Below are positions 55,607 through 64,000 of a stretch of DNA of 64,000 nt, piece by piece. The position numbers and the translations under genes were made by a program. A model generated the notes under the pieces. That model was not told the DNA's origin, did not search any database, and saw only the letters and a program-made list of their open reading frames with translations. This stretch comes from Candidatus Mcinerneyibacteriota bacterium (lineage in GTDB: Bacteria; Macinerneyibacteriota; Macinerneyibacteria; Macinerneyibacteriales; DSCS01): NCBI GenBank assembly GCA_016937175.1, contig JAFGWL010000056.1:62001-126000 (forward strand), read 5' to 3'. The stretch's first letter is position 1, and every line of letters begins with the position of its first letter.

Positions 55607-57892
55607 ATGAAATATATCAAGATAATTCTTATTTTAGCTGTTCTTGGATTGGCGCTGTTCAACACCCAGGAAGTGGTCAGGCCTCTGCTCTTCTCCAGAG
55701 CCAGGAGTGAAGCGGAAAAAGAGGCCTCACAAAGCCTTGCCCGGCAATACGATGCTGTCTTTCAGGGGCTGGCATCAAAAGAGGCGGCTCTTGACGGCCT
55801 AGCGGCATCTCTGAGCACAAGGACCTCAGCCGAAGAGGTCTCAGGGATCCTGGAAGGGAATCTTTCACAATTTCTCTGGCTTGAATATACAGATCAGTCG
55901 GGCGTCCCCATCGCCCTGGCGGGAGAGCGCACAGATTCCTTCTCGATTTCCCGGCCTCTTCCAGGAGGCAGACGGATCGAAGCGGGGATCGACCTGAACT
56001 CTTTTGTAGAGACTCCCATGCAGCCCTATGTCACCCTCCTCAGAGACCCTGCTCCCGCAGTGAAGAAGTATTCCGCGGACCCCCGGACAATCGTCCGCAC
56101 CCTCCCCCTGGACGACACCGGTTTTACCCTGGTCCTGCATACTCCGGCCAAACCGCGCATGGACTCCCTCCTGATCATCCAGGGAGCCCTGCTGGCCCTG
56201 GGCCTCTTCGCTGCCTGGCTGGTCCTTAAAAACGCCAGGCGTGTGGACATCCCTTCCCTGACCTCTTTTTTCGAGCAAGTGGAAAAGGGGAATGCCGACC
56301 TTCGATTTGATATTAAGAACAATGACCCCCTGAAAAATGTCAAAGAGCGTGTCAACTATTTTCTTGATTCTACCCAGAGGGATTATTCCGACGCTGCAGT
56401 AGAGAAGAAAAAGATCCTCTCTTTCTGCCATACGCTCCATGCCGTATCCCGGGAACAGACCCCCGTCAAACAATACCAGTTTTTCCTCTCTTTTCTCGTC
56501 AACGAACTTTCCATTGAAAGTGTCCACCTTTTCGTGAAGGATACAAAACAAGTCCTTTACTTCAGAGGTCTGGAGTCAGCCACGATCCCCTCAAACCCCA
56601 ACCTTGAGAAGCTCTTCGCTATGGAAGAAAAGTCACTCCTGGACGAGTTTGACCTCTCATCCATCATCAGTGAAGAGGATACCTCCATTCATGCCTATAT
56701 CGTCTATCCCCTCTCAGAGAATGCCACCCTCCTCCTCCCGAAATCCCAGCTTTCTAATATAAAACTCGATATCTTCGATATTTTCATCAAACTCTTCAAA
56801 CAGACTCTCCTCCTTCACCAGGAGCGCATCGAGGCGATCCGAAACAAAGTCTACAATGAAAAGAGCTTTAATAAAACCGCCGTGGGCTTTCTCTGGGCGA
56901 GTCAGGACGGCCGGATGAAAAAGGCCAATGATGCAGCCAGGGCCCTTCTTCTCATCGAAGAGGAAGAGTTCAATATCTTTGATTTCCTCGTCAATATGGG
57001 CGTCGATACGACTCCTTTTTCAACCCTTGTCCAGGAGGGAAGAAACAGGGCCTTTACCGTAGCAGGAAAGAACAGGACCTTCTATTTCACCGTGAGCCCC
57101 CTTCTGCTAAGCGATCAGGGCCAATATGACCTTCTCTTTTCCATGACTGACGTTACTGATATCCAAAACGAGAAAACACTGGCCCTTCAGGAGGCTGAGT
57201 CCACCATAAGGCGTTATGAAACGGAGATCAACCGCCTGAACCGGGAGAACATCGCCTTTCAGGAACAGGCCGATACAGCGGGAGAGACACCGGCACTGGA
57301 ATATATCACAGCTCCCATGGCTGCCTCCCTTTCAAGAACAGGGAAGGCCATCAAAACTCTTCTTCCCCTCATCTTTGACGACAACGAAAAACGCCTTCTT
57401 CTCCTTATGCGAAAAGAACTGACTTCACTTAATTTCCTCATCAGAGACCTTCTCATCTTCGGTAAGGAGATGGAGCTGGAACGGGATTATGGAGATATCG
57501 CCGACTATATCAAGAGAAGCTTTGACCTGGTCAAACAGGACCTGCGGGAAAAACGCTGTTCTGTCCAGGCCGACTTGAAAAACGCCCCTGCTATCCAGTT
57601 CGATAAGACCTTGGTAAGCCTGGCGCTTTTCAACCTCTTCCTGTTTGTGGCTCAGGCAGCCCAGGACAAAGCCCGGCTGACGGTTCAGACAACCTCGAAA
57701 GAGGGCCGTTTTTTCTTGTTGACCACACTTTCTGACTTTCAGCAGGAAGCCGTGCAGGGAGCTCTCGAGGATATTCTGGACCGCTACAGTGTTTTCGCTT
57801 TCCTCGTCCGTGATATCGCCCGGGCTCACGGAGGTGATTTTGACATCCGCAAGACTGATGCCGGATTGGCTCTGACCCTTAACTTACCCTGA
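55607..57892 (+). CDS. sensor histidine-kinase-like protein, degenerate (probable pseudokinase)
   Basis: The 761-residue protein has an N-terminal membrane helix (about 5-22), a periplasmic sensing domain (about 25-185), a second helix (about 188-207), a HAMP-like linker, a GAF-like region (about 270-400), a PAS domain (about 425-530) and a coiled coil (about 535-565). The C-terminal part keeps the shape of a kinase (ARAHGGDFDIRKTDAGLALTLNLP resembles the end of an HATPase). I cannot find a DHp histidine in H-E/D-x context, an N-box with the usual NAxK, or a DxGxG loop. It likely works as a signal-binding scaffold rather than a kinase; no response regulator is adjacent. Confidence 0.72.
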   Translation: MKYIKIILILAVLGLALFNTQEVVRPLLFSRARSEAEKEASQSLARQYDAVFQGLASKEAALDGLAASLSTRTSAEEVSGILEGNLSQFLWLEYTDQSGVPIALAGERTDSFSISRPLPGGRRIEAGIDLNSFVETPMQPYVTLLRDPAPAVKKYSADPRTIVRTLPLDDTGFTLVLHTPAKPRMDSLLIIQGALLALGLFAAWLVLKNARRVDIPSLTSFFEQVEKGNADLRFDIKNNDPLKNVKERVNYFLDSTQRDYSDAAVEKKKILSFCHTLHAVSREQTPVKQYQFFLSFLVNELSIESVHLFVKDTKQVLYFRGLESATIPSNPNLEKLFAMEEKSLLDEFDLSSIISEEDTSIHAYIVYPLSENATLLLPKSQLSNIKLDIFDIFIKLFKQTLLLHQERIEAIRNKVYNEKSFNKTAVGFLWASQDGRMKKANDAARALLLIEEEEFNIFDFLVNMGVDTTPFSTLVQEGRNRAFTVAGKNRTFYFTVSPLLLSDQGQYDLLFSMTDVTDIQNEKTLALQEAESTIRRYETEINRLNRENIAFQEQADTAGETPALEYITAPMAASLSRTGKAIKTLLPLIFDDNEKRLLLLMRKELTSLNFLIRDLLIFGKEMELERDYGDIADYIKRSFDLVKQDLREKRCSVQADLKNAPAIQFDKTLVSLALFNLFLFVAQAAQDKARLTVQTTSKEGRFFLLTTLSDFQQEAVQGALEDILDRYSVFAFLVRDIARAHGGDFDIRKTDAGLALTLNLP

Positions 57893-57894
57893 TC

Positions 57895-58326
57895 ATGGCC
57901 ATCGCATTCACGTTTAAAAAGAGCCCCTTCTATGTCCTTCTTCTCATGGCGGGGCTTGCTCTTCTTTTCTTCCTTTTTCATACCTTGACCGGCGGACGGT
58001 ATGCCTCTTTGCCGGTAAAGCTTTTCGGAGATCTCAGGCCTCAAGATGTGATCACCGTCCATGCCTTCGGAAAAGAGGTTAAAATCGGAGAAGAAGGGCG
58101 CACTCTCCTCAAAAACATCAGAGTAGAGAGGGGACGGGACTCTTTGAGACTTTCTGAAGATATCTCCCTGACAGTCAACAGGAGTTCTTATGCCCTGGGA
58201 GCCATCACGTCACCGGCTCCCCTGACCTTCATCAAGGGGCCTGACGGGCATATCTATCTCTATCGCGGAGACCTTCTCAGGGAATTAGGCATCACTCTCC
58301 AAAAGGAGGATCCGGATGAGAAGTGA
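57895..58326 (+). CDS. single-pass membrane protein of unknown function
   Basis: The 143-residue protein has one N-terminal membrane helix (about 12-32, YVLLLMAGLALLFFLFHTL) and a small beta-rich domain outside (GDLRPQDVITVHAFGKEVKIGEE, SEDISLTVNRSSYALGAI). I do not recognise the family. It begins 2 nt after the pseudokinase stop and overlaps the methylene-THF dehydrogenase start by 11 nt, so it is cotranscribed and probably translationally coupled with both. It may be an accessory of the sensor protein. Confidence 0.6.
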   Translation: MAIAFTFKKSPFYVLLLMAGLALLFFLFHTLTGGRYASLPVKLFGDLRPQDVITVHAFGKEVKIGEEGRTLLKNIRVERGRDSLRLSEDISLTVNRSSYALGAITSPAPLTFIKGPDGHIYLYRGDLLRELGITLQKEDPDEK

Positions 58327-59281
58327 CAGGATCATCGATGTATCCCATCTTATCGAGACTTTCGACAAGCCCGAGTTTCTGAGAAGAGAAGAGGCCTACA
58401 GCCGATTAGGGATCACTCCCTCTCTGGCTGTAGTCATGGCGGGAGAGGATCCCGGTTCCCTCTCTTATATGAGGGGGATCGAGCGCTTCTGCCGATCAAG
58501 ACAAGTCTCCTTTCATTCTGTCGTCTGCATGGACAGCCGTCATCTGGAAAAAACAATCCACGAGCTTAATCAGGATGAAGAGATCCACGGGATCATGATC
58601 CTCTACCCCACACCCTTCAGAGGAAAAGATACCCGTTTTATGAATGCTGTCTCCCCTGCCAAGGATGTTGAGGGGCTTCACCATACCCATCTCGGGTATC
58701 TCGTCCAGTTCGAACAGTTCAAAGACCCCTTGAAACTGAAAAAACTGGTAATTCCCCCGACAGCCAAAGGTATCCTCTATATTTTCAAACGTTATGCCCT
58801 TCTATATGAAGAGGCCAAAAAAAGGGACGGAGCCTACCCTCTGGGATTTGAGGAGAACCCTTTTGCTATTACCGGAAAGCGCTTCACGATCATCAATGAT
58901 TCTCTGGCTGTGGGGCGCTCCCTGGCGCTTATGCTGCTGAATGAAAACGGATCTGTCCGGGTATGCCATCGTCATACATCCTTCCGGGAAGTCCTGGCAC
59001 TCTGTCATCGTTCCGATGTGATCGTCTCCGCTGTTCCCGGCCCCTTCACTATCCCCACCGAAAAGATCCCCCGAGGGGCAGTGGTCATCGATATTTCTTT
59101 CGAAGGCAACTTTGAGTATCCGGATGTTTTCGCGAAAGCGGGGCTGATCGCCCCGAAATGGAATCTCACAGAAAAAGGCAACCGTATCAACGATATGACC
59201 CTTTACCGGCTTCTCTCCAACCTCTATTATCTTATCGATGCCGGCCTTCCCCCGGGCATCTTACGGCGTTATCACTCCTGA
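58316..59281 (+). CDS. methylenetetrahydrofolate dehydrogenase, yeast MTD1-like, lacking cyclohydrolase lysine
   Basis: The 321-residue protein is FolD-like: AGEDPGSLSYMRGIERF (43-59), ILYPTP, AKDVEGLHHTHLGYL (115-129), TIINDSLAVGRS (191-202) and the DVIVSAVPG and GAVVIDIS blocks. Canonical FolD has YxxxK with a lysine essential for cyclohydrolase; here Y51 is followed at +4 by I55. Length and layout, including the INDS..VGRS cofactor turn and extra segment near 130-190, resemble the monofunctional NAD-dependent yeast enzyme MTD1, which also lacks this lysine as I recall. I infer oxidation of methylene-THF to methenyl-THF only. It overlaps the thiF 3' end by 10 nt, tail to tail. Confidence 0.8.
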   Translation: MRSDRIIDVSHLIETFDKPEFLRREEAYSRLGITPSLAVVMAGEDPGSLSYMRGIERFCRSRQVSFHSVVCMDSRHLEKTIHELNQDEEIHGIMILYPTPFRGKDTRFMNAVSPAKDVEGLHHTHLGYLVQFEQFKDPLKLKKLVIPPTAKGILYIFKRYALLYEEAKKRDGAYPLGFEENPFAITGKRFTIINDSLAVGRSLALMLLNENGSVRVCHRHTSFREVLALCHRSDVIVSAVPGPFTIPTEKIPRGAVVIDISFEGNFEYPDVFAKAGLIAPKWNLTEKGNRINDMTLYRLLSNLYYLIDAGLPPGILRRYHS

Positions 59282-60075
59282 TCAAGCCCCAGGATGAGGC
59301 GAAGAGCTTCATTGGCTTGATGATGGGCGCAGATCCCCACGCGGGGAGCCATGAGCCCGGCTCCCTGCCCCGCTTCACTGGACTGGTCACCGCAGATGAC
59401 GAGCTTACCCAGCCGGACTGTAACTATCTCATTGGAAGGGCCATATCCGGCCATGCCTGAACCGGAAACTACATGGCATCCTTTCATCTTCTCCAGAACA
59501 GTTGTAATCAGCATCTCTTTTTCAGAGGCTTTGTCAAAAGCTTCGATAATCACCGAGGCTCCGTTGAAAAGAACCGGGATATTCTCCCTGTCCAGGCGCA
59601 CAGTATTGATGCGGACCCTTACCCCCGGATGGATATCCGCAATGGTCTCTTTCAGAGCTTCGGTCTTGAATCGGCCGATCTGGCTTAAAAAATAGTGCTG
59701 TCGGTTGATGTTGGAGGGTTCTACCACATCATAATCGGCGAGGATCAACGTCCCTACCCCCAACCGGGCCAAAGCGACAGCCGCCGCAGACCCGAGCCCT
59801 CCCAGGCCGGCTATCCCAACCACGGCACGGGAGACCTTATCATGGACTCCCGGAGAATGACGGGCGGCCAGGAGAGCATCCAGCTCCCCGTCCTCATATT
59901 GTCTCCCCCGCTGAATAAAGACGACAACATCCCCCTCTTTAAGGGGGAGGTCCTCTTCGGCCGGACAGGAGTTCAGTACTGTGATATCCGCTTCCGGAAC
60001 CGTTGCTTCTTTGAGTTCGTAAAGAGTCGTCCCTGCAGGGACTTCCCTTTTTACTTCGTTGACGGTAATGATCAT
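59272..60075 (-). CDS. thiF: ThiF-family adenylyltransferase with ThiS-like N-terminal domain
   Basis: The 267-residue protein joins a ubiquitin-like ThiS fold (about 1-65, ITVNEVKREVPAGTTLYELKE, LPLKEGDVVVFIQRG) to an E1-like Rossmann domain with GLGGLGSAAAVALARLGVG (about 90-108), DYDVVEPSNINRQHYF and the catalytic-type QHY block. The ThiS-like part lacks the C-terminal GG needed to carry sulfur, so it is structural. This is the clostridial-type ThiF that activates ThiS for thiazole synthesis. No other thi gene is nearby; it sits at the end of the SpoIIE operon, overlapping by 4 nt, so another sulfur-carrier partner is possible. It has no CxxC zinc motifs visible. Confidence 0.85.
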   Translation of the reverse strand: MIITVNEVKREVPAGTTLYELKEATVPEADITVLNSCPAEEDLPLKEGDVVVFIQRGRQYEDGELDALLAARHSPGVHDKVSRAVVGIAGLGGLGSAAAVALARLGVGTLILADYDVVEPSNINRQHYFLSQIGRFKTEALKETIADIHPGVRVRINTVRLDRENIPVLFNGASVIIEAFDKASEKEMLITTVLEKMKGCHVVSGSGMAGYGPSNEIVTVRLGKLVICGDQSSEAGQGAGLMAPRVGICAHHQANEALRLILGLDQE

Positions 60076-61616
60076 TCACCCTCGCTCTTTTTAAGGATCA
60101 CTACAGTGACATCATCCTGGGGGACTGGAGAGTCTTTGAACCGCCGCACTTCCTCGAGAAGCAACCCGCCCCATTCAGACGCAGACTTTCCCCCGCATTT
60201 TCTCATATGGCTTTTCAGCCGCTCTTCCCCATACTCTTCGTCCAGTCCGTTTGTCGCCTCTGTGACCCCGTCGGTGAAGAGAAGAAGGGACTCCAGGTCA
60301 CCGAGAGGGAACTCCCCCGTCTGAAAATCGGTTTTCGGGACTATCCCCAAAAGAAGACCTCCTGCAGTCAACTCTATTAACTCTCCCGACCTGCTGAGAA
60401 GATAGGGAGGGTTATGCCCGGCATTGATATAGGTCACAGACTCTTTTTCCAGATCCATTTCCAGAATAAAGAAGGTAATGAACTGTTCAGCTGTGGTACT
60501 GGAAAAGATGAGATGATTGATATCCGCCACCAGGTCTGGCAGGGTCATCTCCAGGTCCGACAACACAAAGAGTGCAGCATGAAGGGTCGAGACAAGGAGA
60601 GCAGCGGGAACGCTTTTCCCGGTGACATCGGCAATTGCGATATAGATCTTATTGTTGACTTTTCGAATAAAGTAATAGTCTCCTCCTACTTCCCGGCTGG
60701 GGATGTTAGCCCCCCAGATCTCCCATCCCGGAGTCCGGGGAATATTTTTGGGCAGAAGATTCTGTTGGATCTCACGGGCCAGGTTGAGCTCGCTCTCCAT
60801 CCTCTTCTTTTCGATGGACTCATGGATCAGCTTAGAATTTTCCAAAGCGAAAGCGACATTAGCCGCCAATGAGAAGAGGAAATCATACTCTGTCTCGGGA
60901 ATACTCTTTCCGTCAGTCTTATGCCCCAGTACGATATAACCGGTGATAGAGTTCTGATATTGCATGGGGACCACAAGCGCACCACCGGCTTTATGGATCT
61001 CTTCCATCTCGGGGTTCATGAGATATTCCTGGTTCTCATTCAGGTCAAGGATATTTCTCAGGGTCTTGACCATGCCCAGCCTGGACGGAAGTTTTTTAAA
61101 ACCACGGAAGACTTTCAGAGAAAAGGTCTCAGACTGATTGAGGTATATCGCCGTCTTAGTCACCATCACCTGCCCCATGATAGCGAAGATCAGGGCATTG
61201 AGGATACTGCTCTCTTCATGGAGAAAGATGAGCTCCCGGGAAATCTCCATGAGAGTCTCCACCTCTTTCTTCTTCTGCATTCGGCTTTTGGATATCCTCA
61301 GAACAGAGCGGTATAAGAGATGGTTCAGAATAACAGACTTGAGAAATTCAAGGTCGATCTGGGCTTCTACAGAGGTGAAAAGCCCTTCCGGGTCCCTGTC
61401 CAGATAGAGTCGGACATCCTCCAGGCCGTTCTTCCTCAGGATGAGCTCATAAGGAAGAGGTGCTGATACATCACGGGCATAGAGGATAGAGTTATCACTG
61501 ATATTAAAGACAGAACAGGAGCCTATCCCGTATTTTCGGCTGAAGTATTCCATAAAAGAGCGGAGCCCTTCCCGGACATGAGTTCTTTCATTGATCTCTC
61601 TCATCTTTTCAATCAT
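60072..61616 (-). CDS. SpoIIE-type PP2C phosphatase with GAF domain (soluble)
   Basis: The 514-residue protein has an N-terminal region of about 130 residues, a GAF domain (about 140-285) and a PP2C-like SpoIIE domain (about 300-514) with GGDYYFIRKVNNKIYIAIADVTG, YINAGHNPPYLL, LLFTDGVTEATN and QDDVTVVIL. The metal-binding aspartates are all present. It would dephosphorylate a STAS antagonist in a partner-switching cascade. Start ATG 61616 has the ideal aagggg site and overlaps the upstream gene by 8 nt; an ATG 7 codons earlier lacks one. No membrane segment, unlike its paralogue. Confidence 0.9.
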   Translation of the reverse strand: MIEKMREINERTHVREGLRSFMEYFSRKYGIGSCSVFNISDNSILYARDVSAPLPYELILRKNGLEDVRLYLDRDPEGLFTSVEAQIDLEFLKSVILNHLLYRSVLRISKSRMQKKKEVETLMEISRELIFLHEESSILNALIFAIMGQVMVTKTAIYLNQSETFSLKVFRGFKKLPSRLGMVKTLRNILDLNENQEYLMNPEMEEIHKAGGALVVPMQYQNSITGYIVLGHKTDGKSIPETEYDFLFSLAANVAFALENSKLIHESIEKKRMESELNLAREIQQNLLPKNIPRTPGWEIWGANIPSREVGGDYYFIRKVNNKIYIAIADVTGKSVPAALLVSTLHAALFVLSDLEMTLPDLVADINHLIFSSTTAEQFITFFILEMDLEKESVTYINAGHNPPYLLSRSGELIELTAGGLLLGIVPKTDFQTGEFPLGDLESLLLFTDGVTEATNGLDEEYGEERLKSHMRKCGGKSASEWGGLLLEEVRRFKDSPVPQDDVTVVILKKSEGE

Positions 61617-63666
61617 AAGAAGGCCCCTTCTTTTCAAAAATTATCATGGCAATATCGTCGGTCTGTTCATAGGTCCCCCTGAATTCGTAAAGGTCAGCGG
61701 TGACCTTGTTGATGATCCGTTCACATCCGCCCTCCCTGTTTTTGTCGATCACTTCAAGAAGGCGGGATTCTCCATACAGGCGGCCGTCCCTGTTCCGGGC
61801 TTCTGTGACCCCGTCTGTATAGAGAAAGACAAAATCGCCCGGGTCAAGGCTGAAAGAATGAAAGTGCAGCTTCTCTTCAAAAAGTGCGTTGTCGACTAAG
61901 CCCAGGCCCATGCCTTCCTGCTCCATGAAGGAGAGGCTCTGTTCCTTGCTTCGAAACAGGATAGGGTAATTATGCCCCAGCTGGATATAAGAGGCCTTGT
62001 TTTCCCTGCTATCGTAATAGACCAGGGCCATAGTCACGAAGATCTGGGCAGGAAGCTTGTTTTTGATATAATCATTCATATAAAGGATAATATCCTTCAG
62101 ATTGAAATAGGTCATCCCCATATGAAGCAGGGTCCTGACCATGCTCATATACATGGCCCCATTGATCCCCTTCCCGCTCACATCGGCTATGACAAAGAGC
62201 GTCTTCTCTCCGCCTTCTCTGAAGATGACATCGCAGTAGTCTCCACCGACTTTTATGGTAGGGTTATAGCGCCACCGGATATTGAGTTCTTCGTGGAGGA
62301 TATCCCGGGGAGGAAGGAGGGAAAACTGGATCTTCCGGGCAAGGTTGATCTCTTTTTCCATGATCTTTTTCTCTGAAAGCTCCCGGCTTGCTTCGACAGT
62401 ATGAAGCAGCATGGCTATCTGATTGGCTACCGAGGTGATCAACTGCATCTCTTTCGGCTTAAAGCGTGTCCTGGCTCTTTTGCTCCCGACGATAAGAAAA
62501 CCGTAAAATCGGTTCTCAAAAAAGACCGGAAAGAAAAAAGTGGCCCACTTATAGGCTTGCCGGAACCGGTATCCCATGTCCAGAAATGTAAAATAGCGCC
62601 GGCTCATATATTTCTCATCCCTGTCATCGCTCAAAACAAGGTCGGCTTCCTGGATGTTCAGCAGAGTCTTCAGCTCATTGATGACCATGTTCCTGATCTC
62701 CCCGAAGGAATTAAGCCCTGAGACATTGACGAAAAAATCGCCTACTATATCTTCGTAGTTGATCTCGTCTTTGATAAAAAAGTAGTCCATAAGCCACTTC
62801 ACCAGCTTATAGTAGGAGATGTAAAGGACAAAGCTGAGGACATAGACGGCAAAAAGAACTATTTCGTGGGCTTGCTGGAGTTTGACCAGTATAAAAGTAA
62901 AAAGAAAAGCATAAGCCAGAATAAAGAAACTCCAAAAGAAGTAGTAGAGAAGGCTTCGTTCTTTGATCTCGATATTAAGAAACTTGTACTTGACCATGGA
63001 AAAAGAGAGAAGGATGGCATTGAGAAGGATCGCCAGCGTATACATCAACCGGATCCTCTCCAGGGTGAAGACTGCAGTAAAGAGATTCAGGTGGCCTGAC
63101 AGAAGGTCGATGACGAAGACAAAAGCAAAAGCCTCGATCCCTGTGATAATATAACCCACCTGTTTTCGCAGCAGCTGATTGTCAAAAAGCTTTCTTTTTT
63201 TCCTGAACATCCTGAAGGCCAGGACCAGATAGACTCCGTTGAGGATCAGCAGAAAGATATTATAGAGAGAGGAAATAAGCCGGGCCAGGCCCTGCCCGAT
63301 AAGCCCCCCGCTGAACATCTCGGGAAGCAGAGCCGTTTCCAGGAATTTAAGGATAAAGAGGGCCAGAAAATAGAGAAAATAAGGGATAAAGATCACATAT
63401 TTCAAACCCTTATAGCGCTTTGTATACTCCAGTTCGTAAGGGTAGATGATAGAGAAGAGGAGCAGGAAAGGGAAAAAGAGAATCCAGATCTCGAAAAAAT
63501 TCTCAAAAATATCGATTTTTTCGGTGATGATCCAGGAAAAAGGAGCCAGGCCAAGGGTAAAAAGCATGATCGCCGTAATGGTATTGATATTGGTCTTCTT
63601 GTTTTTGTAGATGTAGATACTCAGCATGAAGATGAGAAACGAGCTGATGGTATTGACCGCTTGCAT
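61609..63666 (-). CDS. SpoIIE-type PP2C phosphatase with multi-pass membrane sensor and GAF domain
   Basis: The 685-residue protein opens with about eight hydrophobic helices (about 5-290) resembling the 7TM sensor module of some kinases. A GAF domain follows (about 300-435) and then the SpoIIE phosphatase (about 450-680) with GGDYCDVIF, FVIADVSGKGINGAMYM, YIQLGHNYPILF, FLYTDGVTEARN and QTDDIAMIIF. It should sense a membrane or small-molecule cue and dephosphorylate a STAS protein. It lies 6 nt after the anti-sigma kinase gene and upstream of its soluble paralogue. Confidence 0.9.
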   Translation of the reverse strand: MQAVNTISSFLIFMLSIYIYKNKKTNINTITAIMLFTLGLAPFSWIITEKIDIFENFFEIWILFFPFLLLFSIIYPYELEYTKRYKGLKYVIFIPYFLYFLALFILKFLETALLPEMFSGGLIGQGLARLISSLYNIFLLILNGVYLVLAFRMFRKKRKLFDNQLLRKQVGYIITGIEAFAFVFVIDLLSGHLNLFTAVFTLERIRLMYTLAILLNAILLSFSMVKYKFLNIEIKERSLLYYFFWSFFILAYAFLFTFILVKLQQAHEIVLFAVYVLSFVLYISYYKLVKWLMDYFFIKDEINYEDIVGDFFVNVSGLNSFGEIRNMVINELKTLLNIQEADLVLSDDRDEKYMSRRYFTFLDMGYRFRQAYKWATFFFPVFFENRFYGFLIVGSKRARTRFKPKEMQLITSVANQIAMLLHTVEASRELSEKKIMEKEINLARKIQFSLLPPRDILHEELNIRWRYNPTIKVGGDYCDVIFREGGEKTLFVIADVSGKGINGAMYMSMVRTLLHMGMTYFNLKDIILYMNDYIKNKLPAQIFVTMALVYYDSRENKASYIQLGHNYPILFRSKEQSLSFMEQEGMGLGLVDNALFEEKLHFHSFSLDPGDFVFLYTDGVTEARNRDGRLYGESRLLEVIDKNREGGCERIINKVTADLYEFRGTYEQTDDIAMIIFEKKGPSYD

Positions 63667-63672
63667 ACTATC

Positions 63673-64000
63673 CTAAATCTTTTTCACGACAGTCAGTTCA
63701 TTTTTGTGATACGGGTCTATGGTGATAGTCAGTTTGTCAGCCAGCCTGTCTATCATGAAGAGGCCAAGGCCTCCTTTATGACGGTTTTTAACTTTACTTT
63801 TGATATCCTCAAAATTCAGTTCATGATACTTCTTCTCATCAAACCCTTTTCCATAATCAGTAATGGTCATGGTAAAGAGGTGAGGCTCAAGTTTAAGGCC
63901 GATCTCCACCACAGCTTTTTCTTCCGGCATATCCCGGTAGGCATGTTTTACCACGTTGGAGGCTGCTTCGCCGACAATATAGACCAGGTCTTCGGCCATC
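63673..64000 (-). CDS. RsbW/SpoIIAB-like anti-sigma factor serine kinase, 5' end outside window
   Basis: The visible 109 codons cover most of an HATPase_c_2 domain: N-box VGEAASNVVKHAYRD, the DYGKGFDEKKYHE G1 loop and the GGLGLFMIDRLADKLT G2 region. Family members phosphorylate STAS antagonists and bind sigma factors or other partners. The gene is truncated at its N-terminal side by the window edge; about 30-40 residues are probably missing. It leads the operon with two SpoIIE phosphatases, giving the kinase/phosphatase pair of a partner switch whose STAS protein is not next to it in this window. Confidence 0.88.
   Translation of the reverse strand, partial: MAEDLVYIVGEAASNVVKHAYRDMPEEKAVVEIGLKLEPHLFTMTITDYGKGFDEKKYHELNFEDIKSKVKNRHKGGLGLFMIDRLADKLTITIDPYHKNELTVVKKI

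Follow-up and report, generated by a model that had tools for sequence, protein, structure and literature searches.

Is a monofunctional methylene-THF dehydrogenase of the type known as MTD1 in yeast also found in bacteria, and what would such an enzyme do there? The question is raised by one gene in the 64,000-nucleotide stretch of Candidatus Mcinerneyibacteriota DNA analyzed here (the window), which an earlier note, made from the sequence alone, had likened to MTD1. A survey of the FolD family named MTD1 only in fungi and called its placement difficult (PMC11064299). A search of the open literature, outside of which most subscription journals lie, gave no paper describing a bacterial family of MTD1 type. 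The FolD-fold protein encoded in the window is named MTDL here.

The MTDL gene and its product

The MTDL gene (58316..59281, + strand) begins with ATG and encodes a 321-aa FolD paralogue with likeness to MTD1, as identified by Pfam and profile search. A Shine-Dalgarno-like AGGAGG (58304..58309, + strand) was read from the sequence 6 bases upstream of the ATG. The protein matched PF00763 with 68.7 bits and PF02882 with 66.3 bits, both above the Pfam cut-offs, and all 25 listed NCBIfam FolD models scored far below cut-off (best, 117.7 bits vs. 333). The predicted structure (pLDDT 80, pTM 0.80), for which the underlying alignment included FolDs, contained the two-domain FolD fold and aligned with FolD and MTD1 structures at Z of about 27–30 (VIA-align). 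The Pfam matches and the predicted structure agree with the earlier claim that the fold is intact.

The motifs Y-x-x-G-I, Y-P, KDT-x-FMN, KD-x-EGL, NDS, and KGNRINDMT were conserved across the MTDLs. Judged from these motifs, which are held at approximately 50% overall identity, MTDL is neither a chance ORF nor a decaying gene. The stretch IINDSLAVGRS, to which the earlier note had drawn attention, is present in the window protein, and its N-D-S and A-V-G-R-S are invariant across the family.

Distribution of MTDL

MTDL and a separate FolD were both present in all three genomes examined of the window's phylum. The relatives of the window protein there are those of Ca. Mcinerneyibacterium aminivorans (54% identity) and of a MAG labelled "Bacillota" (75%). 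This MAG (DSCS01000004.1, "Bacillota bacterium") carries a same-genus version of the locus, with 75% identity and the same gene order, and its label looks wrong. In a domain-wide sample of 386 bacterial genomes, MTDL was detected in only one further genome. A search of 103 genomes of a second phylum revealed MTDL in eight, all from one family and two genera, and a second sample of 389 bacterial genomes, which overlaps the first, yielded no further MTDL-bearing lineage. The second phylum is probably Thermotogota, as inferred from its SecA, which matched 3din best (1121 bits vs. 878 for the next group); 3din is from Thermotoga maritima. No paper linking Marinitoga to an MTDL enzyme was found in the open literature.

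The second-phylum MTDLs are approximately 48–53% identical to the window protein, and the MTDLs of the two phyla formed separate groups in the tree with moderate support. MTDL is a real family spanning two phyla.

Active-site and cofactor-binding residues

In the human enzyme, Lys56 acts with Gln100, and Tyr52 and Asp125 bind the substrate (PMC3368264). The silkworm enzyme retained dehydrogenase activity in the K53A and Q97A mutants and lost it in Y49A (PMC6443876). In MTDL, the YxxxK motif is represented by Y51-I55 (58466..58480, + strand), as the earlier note had read it, and the position of the catalytic Lys is Ile in 11/11 MTDLs from the two phyla. The partner Gln is also gone: the site of human Gln100 and MTD1 Tyr98 is Leu96 in the window protein (58601..58603, + strand) and Met or Leu in 11/11. 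The third element of the bifunctional-FolD signature (YxxxK, partner Gln, GGVG-type loop) is likewise replaced, with KGNRINDMT (residues 287–295; 59174..59200, + strand), invariant in MTDLs, standing in place of the substrate loop GGVGPMT. MTDL thus has the entire fold and the two Pfam domains in common with the bifunctional FolDs of E. coli (1b0a) and human DC301 (1a4i) but lacks the YxxxK Lys, Gln100, the GGVGPMT loop, and Arg173. Tyr51, the dinucleotide loop, and the acidic pterin residue were retained, the last as Glu119 (58670..58672, + strand) at the site of the pterin-binding Asp (human Asp125). No compensating Lys was found within the YxxxK motif in any of the 11 MTDLs. Since aliphatic residues occupy the places of both the Lys and the Gln, the cyclohydrolase step is presumed absent in MTDL. 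The substrate could also differ, because KGNRINDMT is particular to MTDL and is absent from MTD1 as well.

The loss of the Lys was found to be common among FolDs. It was missing in 15 of the 35 comparison FolDs (Gln in 12, Ile in two, and Arg in one), a count that includes the closely related FolDs of the eight second-phylum MTDL genomes. The change from Lys to Ile, which had been the key argument for a monofunctional MTD1 type, is therefore insufficient alone, and Lys loss was rejected as proof by itself of an MTD1-type enzyme. The Lys-less bacterial FolDs (some from Clostridium, and those of the second phylum) resemble MTDL in having no catalytic Lys but differ in their ordinary FolD loops, among them the usual GGVG loop, and in having Gln or Ile substituted for the Lys, and they grouped with FolD in the tree. 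These proteins suggest that the cyclohydrolase step may have been lost repeatedly among otherwise ordinary FolDs. In the second-phylum genomes searched, the FolD without Lys was accompanied by a distinct FTCD_C (FchA-like) protein. Lys-less FolDs that have such a protein beside them in the genome are probably dehydrogenase-only.

The human residues Arg173, His196, and Ser197 are located at the NADP 2′-phosphate (PMC3368264). At the Arg173 place, the window protein has Asp195 (58898..58900, + strand), which is Asp in 11/11 MTDLs, and at the Ser197 place it has Arg219. In MTHFD2, the phosphate-binding Arg233 adjoins the matching His. The Arg and Ser were kept at both places by the separate FolD in 11/11 MTDL genomes. 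Asp195 suggests that MTDL may prefer NAD+, but residues are an uncertain guide to the cofactor here, since yeast MTD1 is NAD-linked despite keeping the Arg; Arg219 and the Arg of MTHFD2 are further reservations. For the same reason, the dinucleotide turn, described earlier as MTD1-like, is so only in its Asn (IIN/VIN), which also occurs in 3/35 FolDs. The proposal of NAD+ as the cofactor hence remains plausible, with Asp195 in place of human Arg173, rather than an MTD1-like turn, as its reason.

Relationship to yeast MTD1

Yeast MTD1 (1edz, EC 1.5.1.15) is monofunctional and NAD-dependent, and has lost the cyclohydrolase Lys and Gln as MTDL has, with Thr57 and Tyr98 at the sites where MTDL has Ile and Leu/Met. 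The two also share Glu for the pterin Asp and Asn in the dinucleotide turn, at an overall identity of 26–34%. The segment following KDVEGL (residues 121–147; 58676..58756, + strand) is 27 residues long in 11/11 MTDLs and in MTD1, compared with 18–20 in 35/35 FolDs. Following the last Rossmann strand is a hairpin of eight residues in MTDL, nine in MTD1, and 15–22 in the 35 FolDs. Pro241 and Pro247 (the VP and PT prolines) are common to 11/11 MTDLs and MTD1 and absent from FolDs at those columns. No single mark is proof of MTD1 affinity, because one of nine further FolDs had 26 residues in the first segment. The earlier statement that the extra segments are MTD1-like held for residues 121–147 but not for the others: the connector of MTDL exceeds that of MTD1 by 12 residues, and the stretch after the second Rossmann strand comprises 18 residues in MTDL, 41 in MTD1, and 16 in FolD (34/35), so that the long second insertion of yeast MTD1 is absent.

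When a profile of six MTDLs was searched against the PDB, 1edz ranked first of 27 matches (113 bits; E value, 1.1e-31), followed by a FolD with 100 bits. A three-sequence profile left the affinity undecided between MTD1 and FolD, and with the window sequence alone several FolDs scored above 1edz. PDB similarity of the single sequence was consequently dropped as the deciding test, only the six-sequence profile being clear; MTDL is closer to MTD1 than to bifunctional FolD at the family level, and the window sequence by itself shows no such closeness. In the local set, yeast MTD1 as the query ranked seven MTDLs at the top (82–106 bits) ahead of the best FolD (76 bits), with the window protein itself at 68 bits. 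In the 386 genomes, the same query gave MTDL first (4.7e-21) and an ordinary FolD a close second (2.6e-20), because the local matches break at the MTD1 insertion. Foldseek with the MTDL model placed 1edz first (E value, 2.4e-19), and VIA-align gave a tie (Z of 28.9 for 1edz vs. up to 29.9 for FolDs).

In the tree, MTDL and MTD1 were split together from 35 FolDs, and again from 38 FolDs, with support of 99/97, under a warning of the tool about long branches. In a leave-one-out tree lacking MTDL, MTD1 had no supported place among FolDs. The profile, trees, similarity ranking, Foldseek rank, and shared indels and residues together uphold the MTD1 likeness that the earlier note had proposed without database searches. 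These comparisons used one MTD1 sequence, that of yeast. We regard the two proteins as allied and not as strict orthologues.

Gene neighbourhood

Upstream of MTDL lies a gene for a 761-aa membrane pseudokinase (55607..57892, + strand), which has no H-box His in three homologues, followed by a gene for a 143-aa one-TM protein (57895..58326, + strand), the last 11 bases of which are shared with the start of MTDL. On the far side, a fusion of a ThiS-like ubiquitin domain with a ThiF-type adenylyltransferase (59272–60075, − strand) is convergent with MTDL; beyond it come two adjacent genes for RsbU-like phosphatases, followed by a reading frame for an anti-sigma-like ATPase (60072–63999, − strand). 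The order of pseudokinase, one-TM protein, and MTDL was the same in 3/3 genomes of the window's phylum, and the ThiS–ThiF fusion and the two phosphatases were kept in both relatives. The pseudokinase, a membrane sensor whose histidine-kinase core is degenerate, shares just 23% identity with its counterpart from the phylum's other family, where MTDL is 54% identical.

At the eight second-phylum loci, MTDL lacks these neighbours, and no trace of the pseudokinase was found beside it. There, smc adjoins MTDL at 6/8 loci, and the other side is occupied by a barrel gene (four loci) or prfB (two loci). The pseudokinase and membrane-protein context pointed out by the earlier note is therefore real but restricted to the window's phylum, and it was dropped as a property of the MTDL family. 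A regulatory role of MTDL in the window's phylum is possible.

Pathway context and proposed function

The earlier note had proposed searching the genome for a second folD, fchA, or ftfL. In the genome of the window (1.88 Mb, 71 contigs, 98.7% complete), a YxxxK FolD, an FTCD_C protein, and FTHFS were found. The FolD is encoded on another contig (C64; 734–1567 of locus L001), carries YREAK, KDIDG, and PVPGGVG, and adjoins an ORF resembling xseA. MTDL is thus a paralogue and not a replacement, and the view of MTDL as the sole FolD of the genome was ruled out. At the Gln100 place, where most FolDs read Gln-Leu (VQLP), this phylum's YxxxK FolD carries Glu-Gln (IEQP). The other FolD of the window's genome looks bifunctional, so that a second dehydrogenase is not required there.

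FTHFS, an FTCD_C protein, and the glycine-cleavage P-protein GcvP were present in 7/7 MTDL genomes searched; in the window's genome, FTCD_C is part of a 560-aa ORF. The same three were also found in a second-phylum genome without MTDL, and these pathway genes therefore permit, but do not prove, the role proposed for MTDL. Separate FchA cyclohydrolases are known in bacteria (PMC7219735). With a YxxxK FolD, an FTCD_C protein, and FTHFS in the same genome, hydrolysis of methenyl-THF by another enzyme, which the earlier note had required, poses no problem.

On this evidence, MTDL is probably an NAD+-linked, dehydrogenase-only methylene-THF oxidase, allied to MTD1, that works beside an NADP-type FolD. 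The analysis established the fold family, the residue changes, the distribution, the MTD1 affinity, and the presence of the partner genes; we infer the activity, cofactor, direction, and loss of the cyclohydrolase step. With NAD+ as the acceptor, MTDL would oxidize 5,10-methylene-THF, of which glycine cleavage is one source, to 5,10-methenyl-THF, and would not perform the cyclohydrolase step. Either the separate FolD or the FTCD/FchA-type protein would then hydrolyze the methenyl-THF, and the resulting 10-formyl-THF would go to FTHFS. In this case, NADP-type FolD and NAD-type MTDL would coexist in the cell, an arrangement also found in yeast. NAD-linked methylene-THF dehydrogenases, the activity proposed for MTDL, are known biochemically from Acetobacterium woodii and Clostridium formicoaceticum, as cited in one published account (PMC7793690).

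Alternative interpretations

The likeness to MTD1 may not reflect common descent if MTDL is a dehydrogenase-type paralogue born within bacteria, and the two came to resemble each other by convergence once each had lost the cyclohydrolase site, with long-branch attraction adding to the effect. Both MTDL and MTD1 form long branches, the loss of the Lys is common, and an AU test did not reject a placement of MTD1 with two Thermoplasmata (archaeal) FolDs (p = 0.46). Nonetheless, we consider this origin rather unlikely. Lys-less FolDs of other lineages were not drawn to MTD1 (22–64 bits, compared with 58–106 for MTDLs), and 1edz was the top PDB match of the MTDL profile. The two indels and two prolines common to MTDL and MTD1 are distant from the lost Lys, and the inserted columns, being below the fill limit, were absent from the tree.

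A different role is conceivable for the protein itself. The fixed gene order in the window's phylum, the overlap of the one-TM and MTDL genes, the invariant KGNRINDMT in place of the substrate loop, and the ordinary FolD in the same genome would all suit a FolD fold with a changed substrate, or a folate/NAD-binding sensor in a signalling unit with the pseudokinase and the one-TM protein. Such a role is unlikely, given that eight second-phylum genomes carry the same MTDL motifs with no adjoining pseudokinase and that Tyr51, the acidic pterin residue, and the dinucleotide loop are retained. Still less probable is a bifunctional MTDL that hydrolyzes methenyl-THF via another residue: hydrolysis may persist in some of the 15 FolDs without Lys, but 11/11 MTDLs have aliphatic residues in place of both Lys and Gln, their motif offers no substitute Lys, and the genomes encode FolD and FTCD_C as separate proteins.

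Significance of MTDL

A bolder and less likely reading is that the MTD1 line, described in the papers found only from fungi, is an ancient offshoot within the FolD superfamily that exists also in bacteria of two phyla. These bacteria would pair an NAD-linked, dehydrogenase-only enzyme with an NADP-type FolD, as yeast does, and the fungal MTD1 might have come from a bacterial line of this kind. A bacterial family with the MTD1 indels provides an anchor for the placement of MTD1, which is hard in FolD-family trees (PMC11064299). MTDL would also be a natural case of a FolD losing the cyclohydrolase step and perhaps switching its cofactor. It is predicted that MTDL bacteria can route one-carbon units to either NADH or NADPH.
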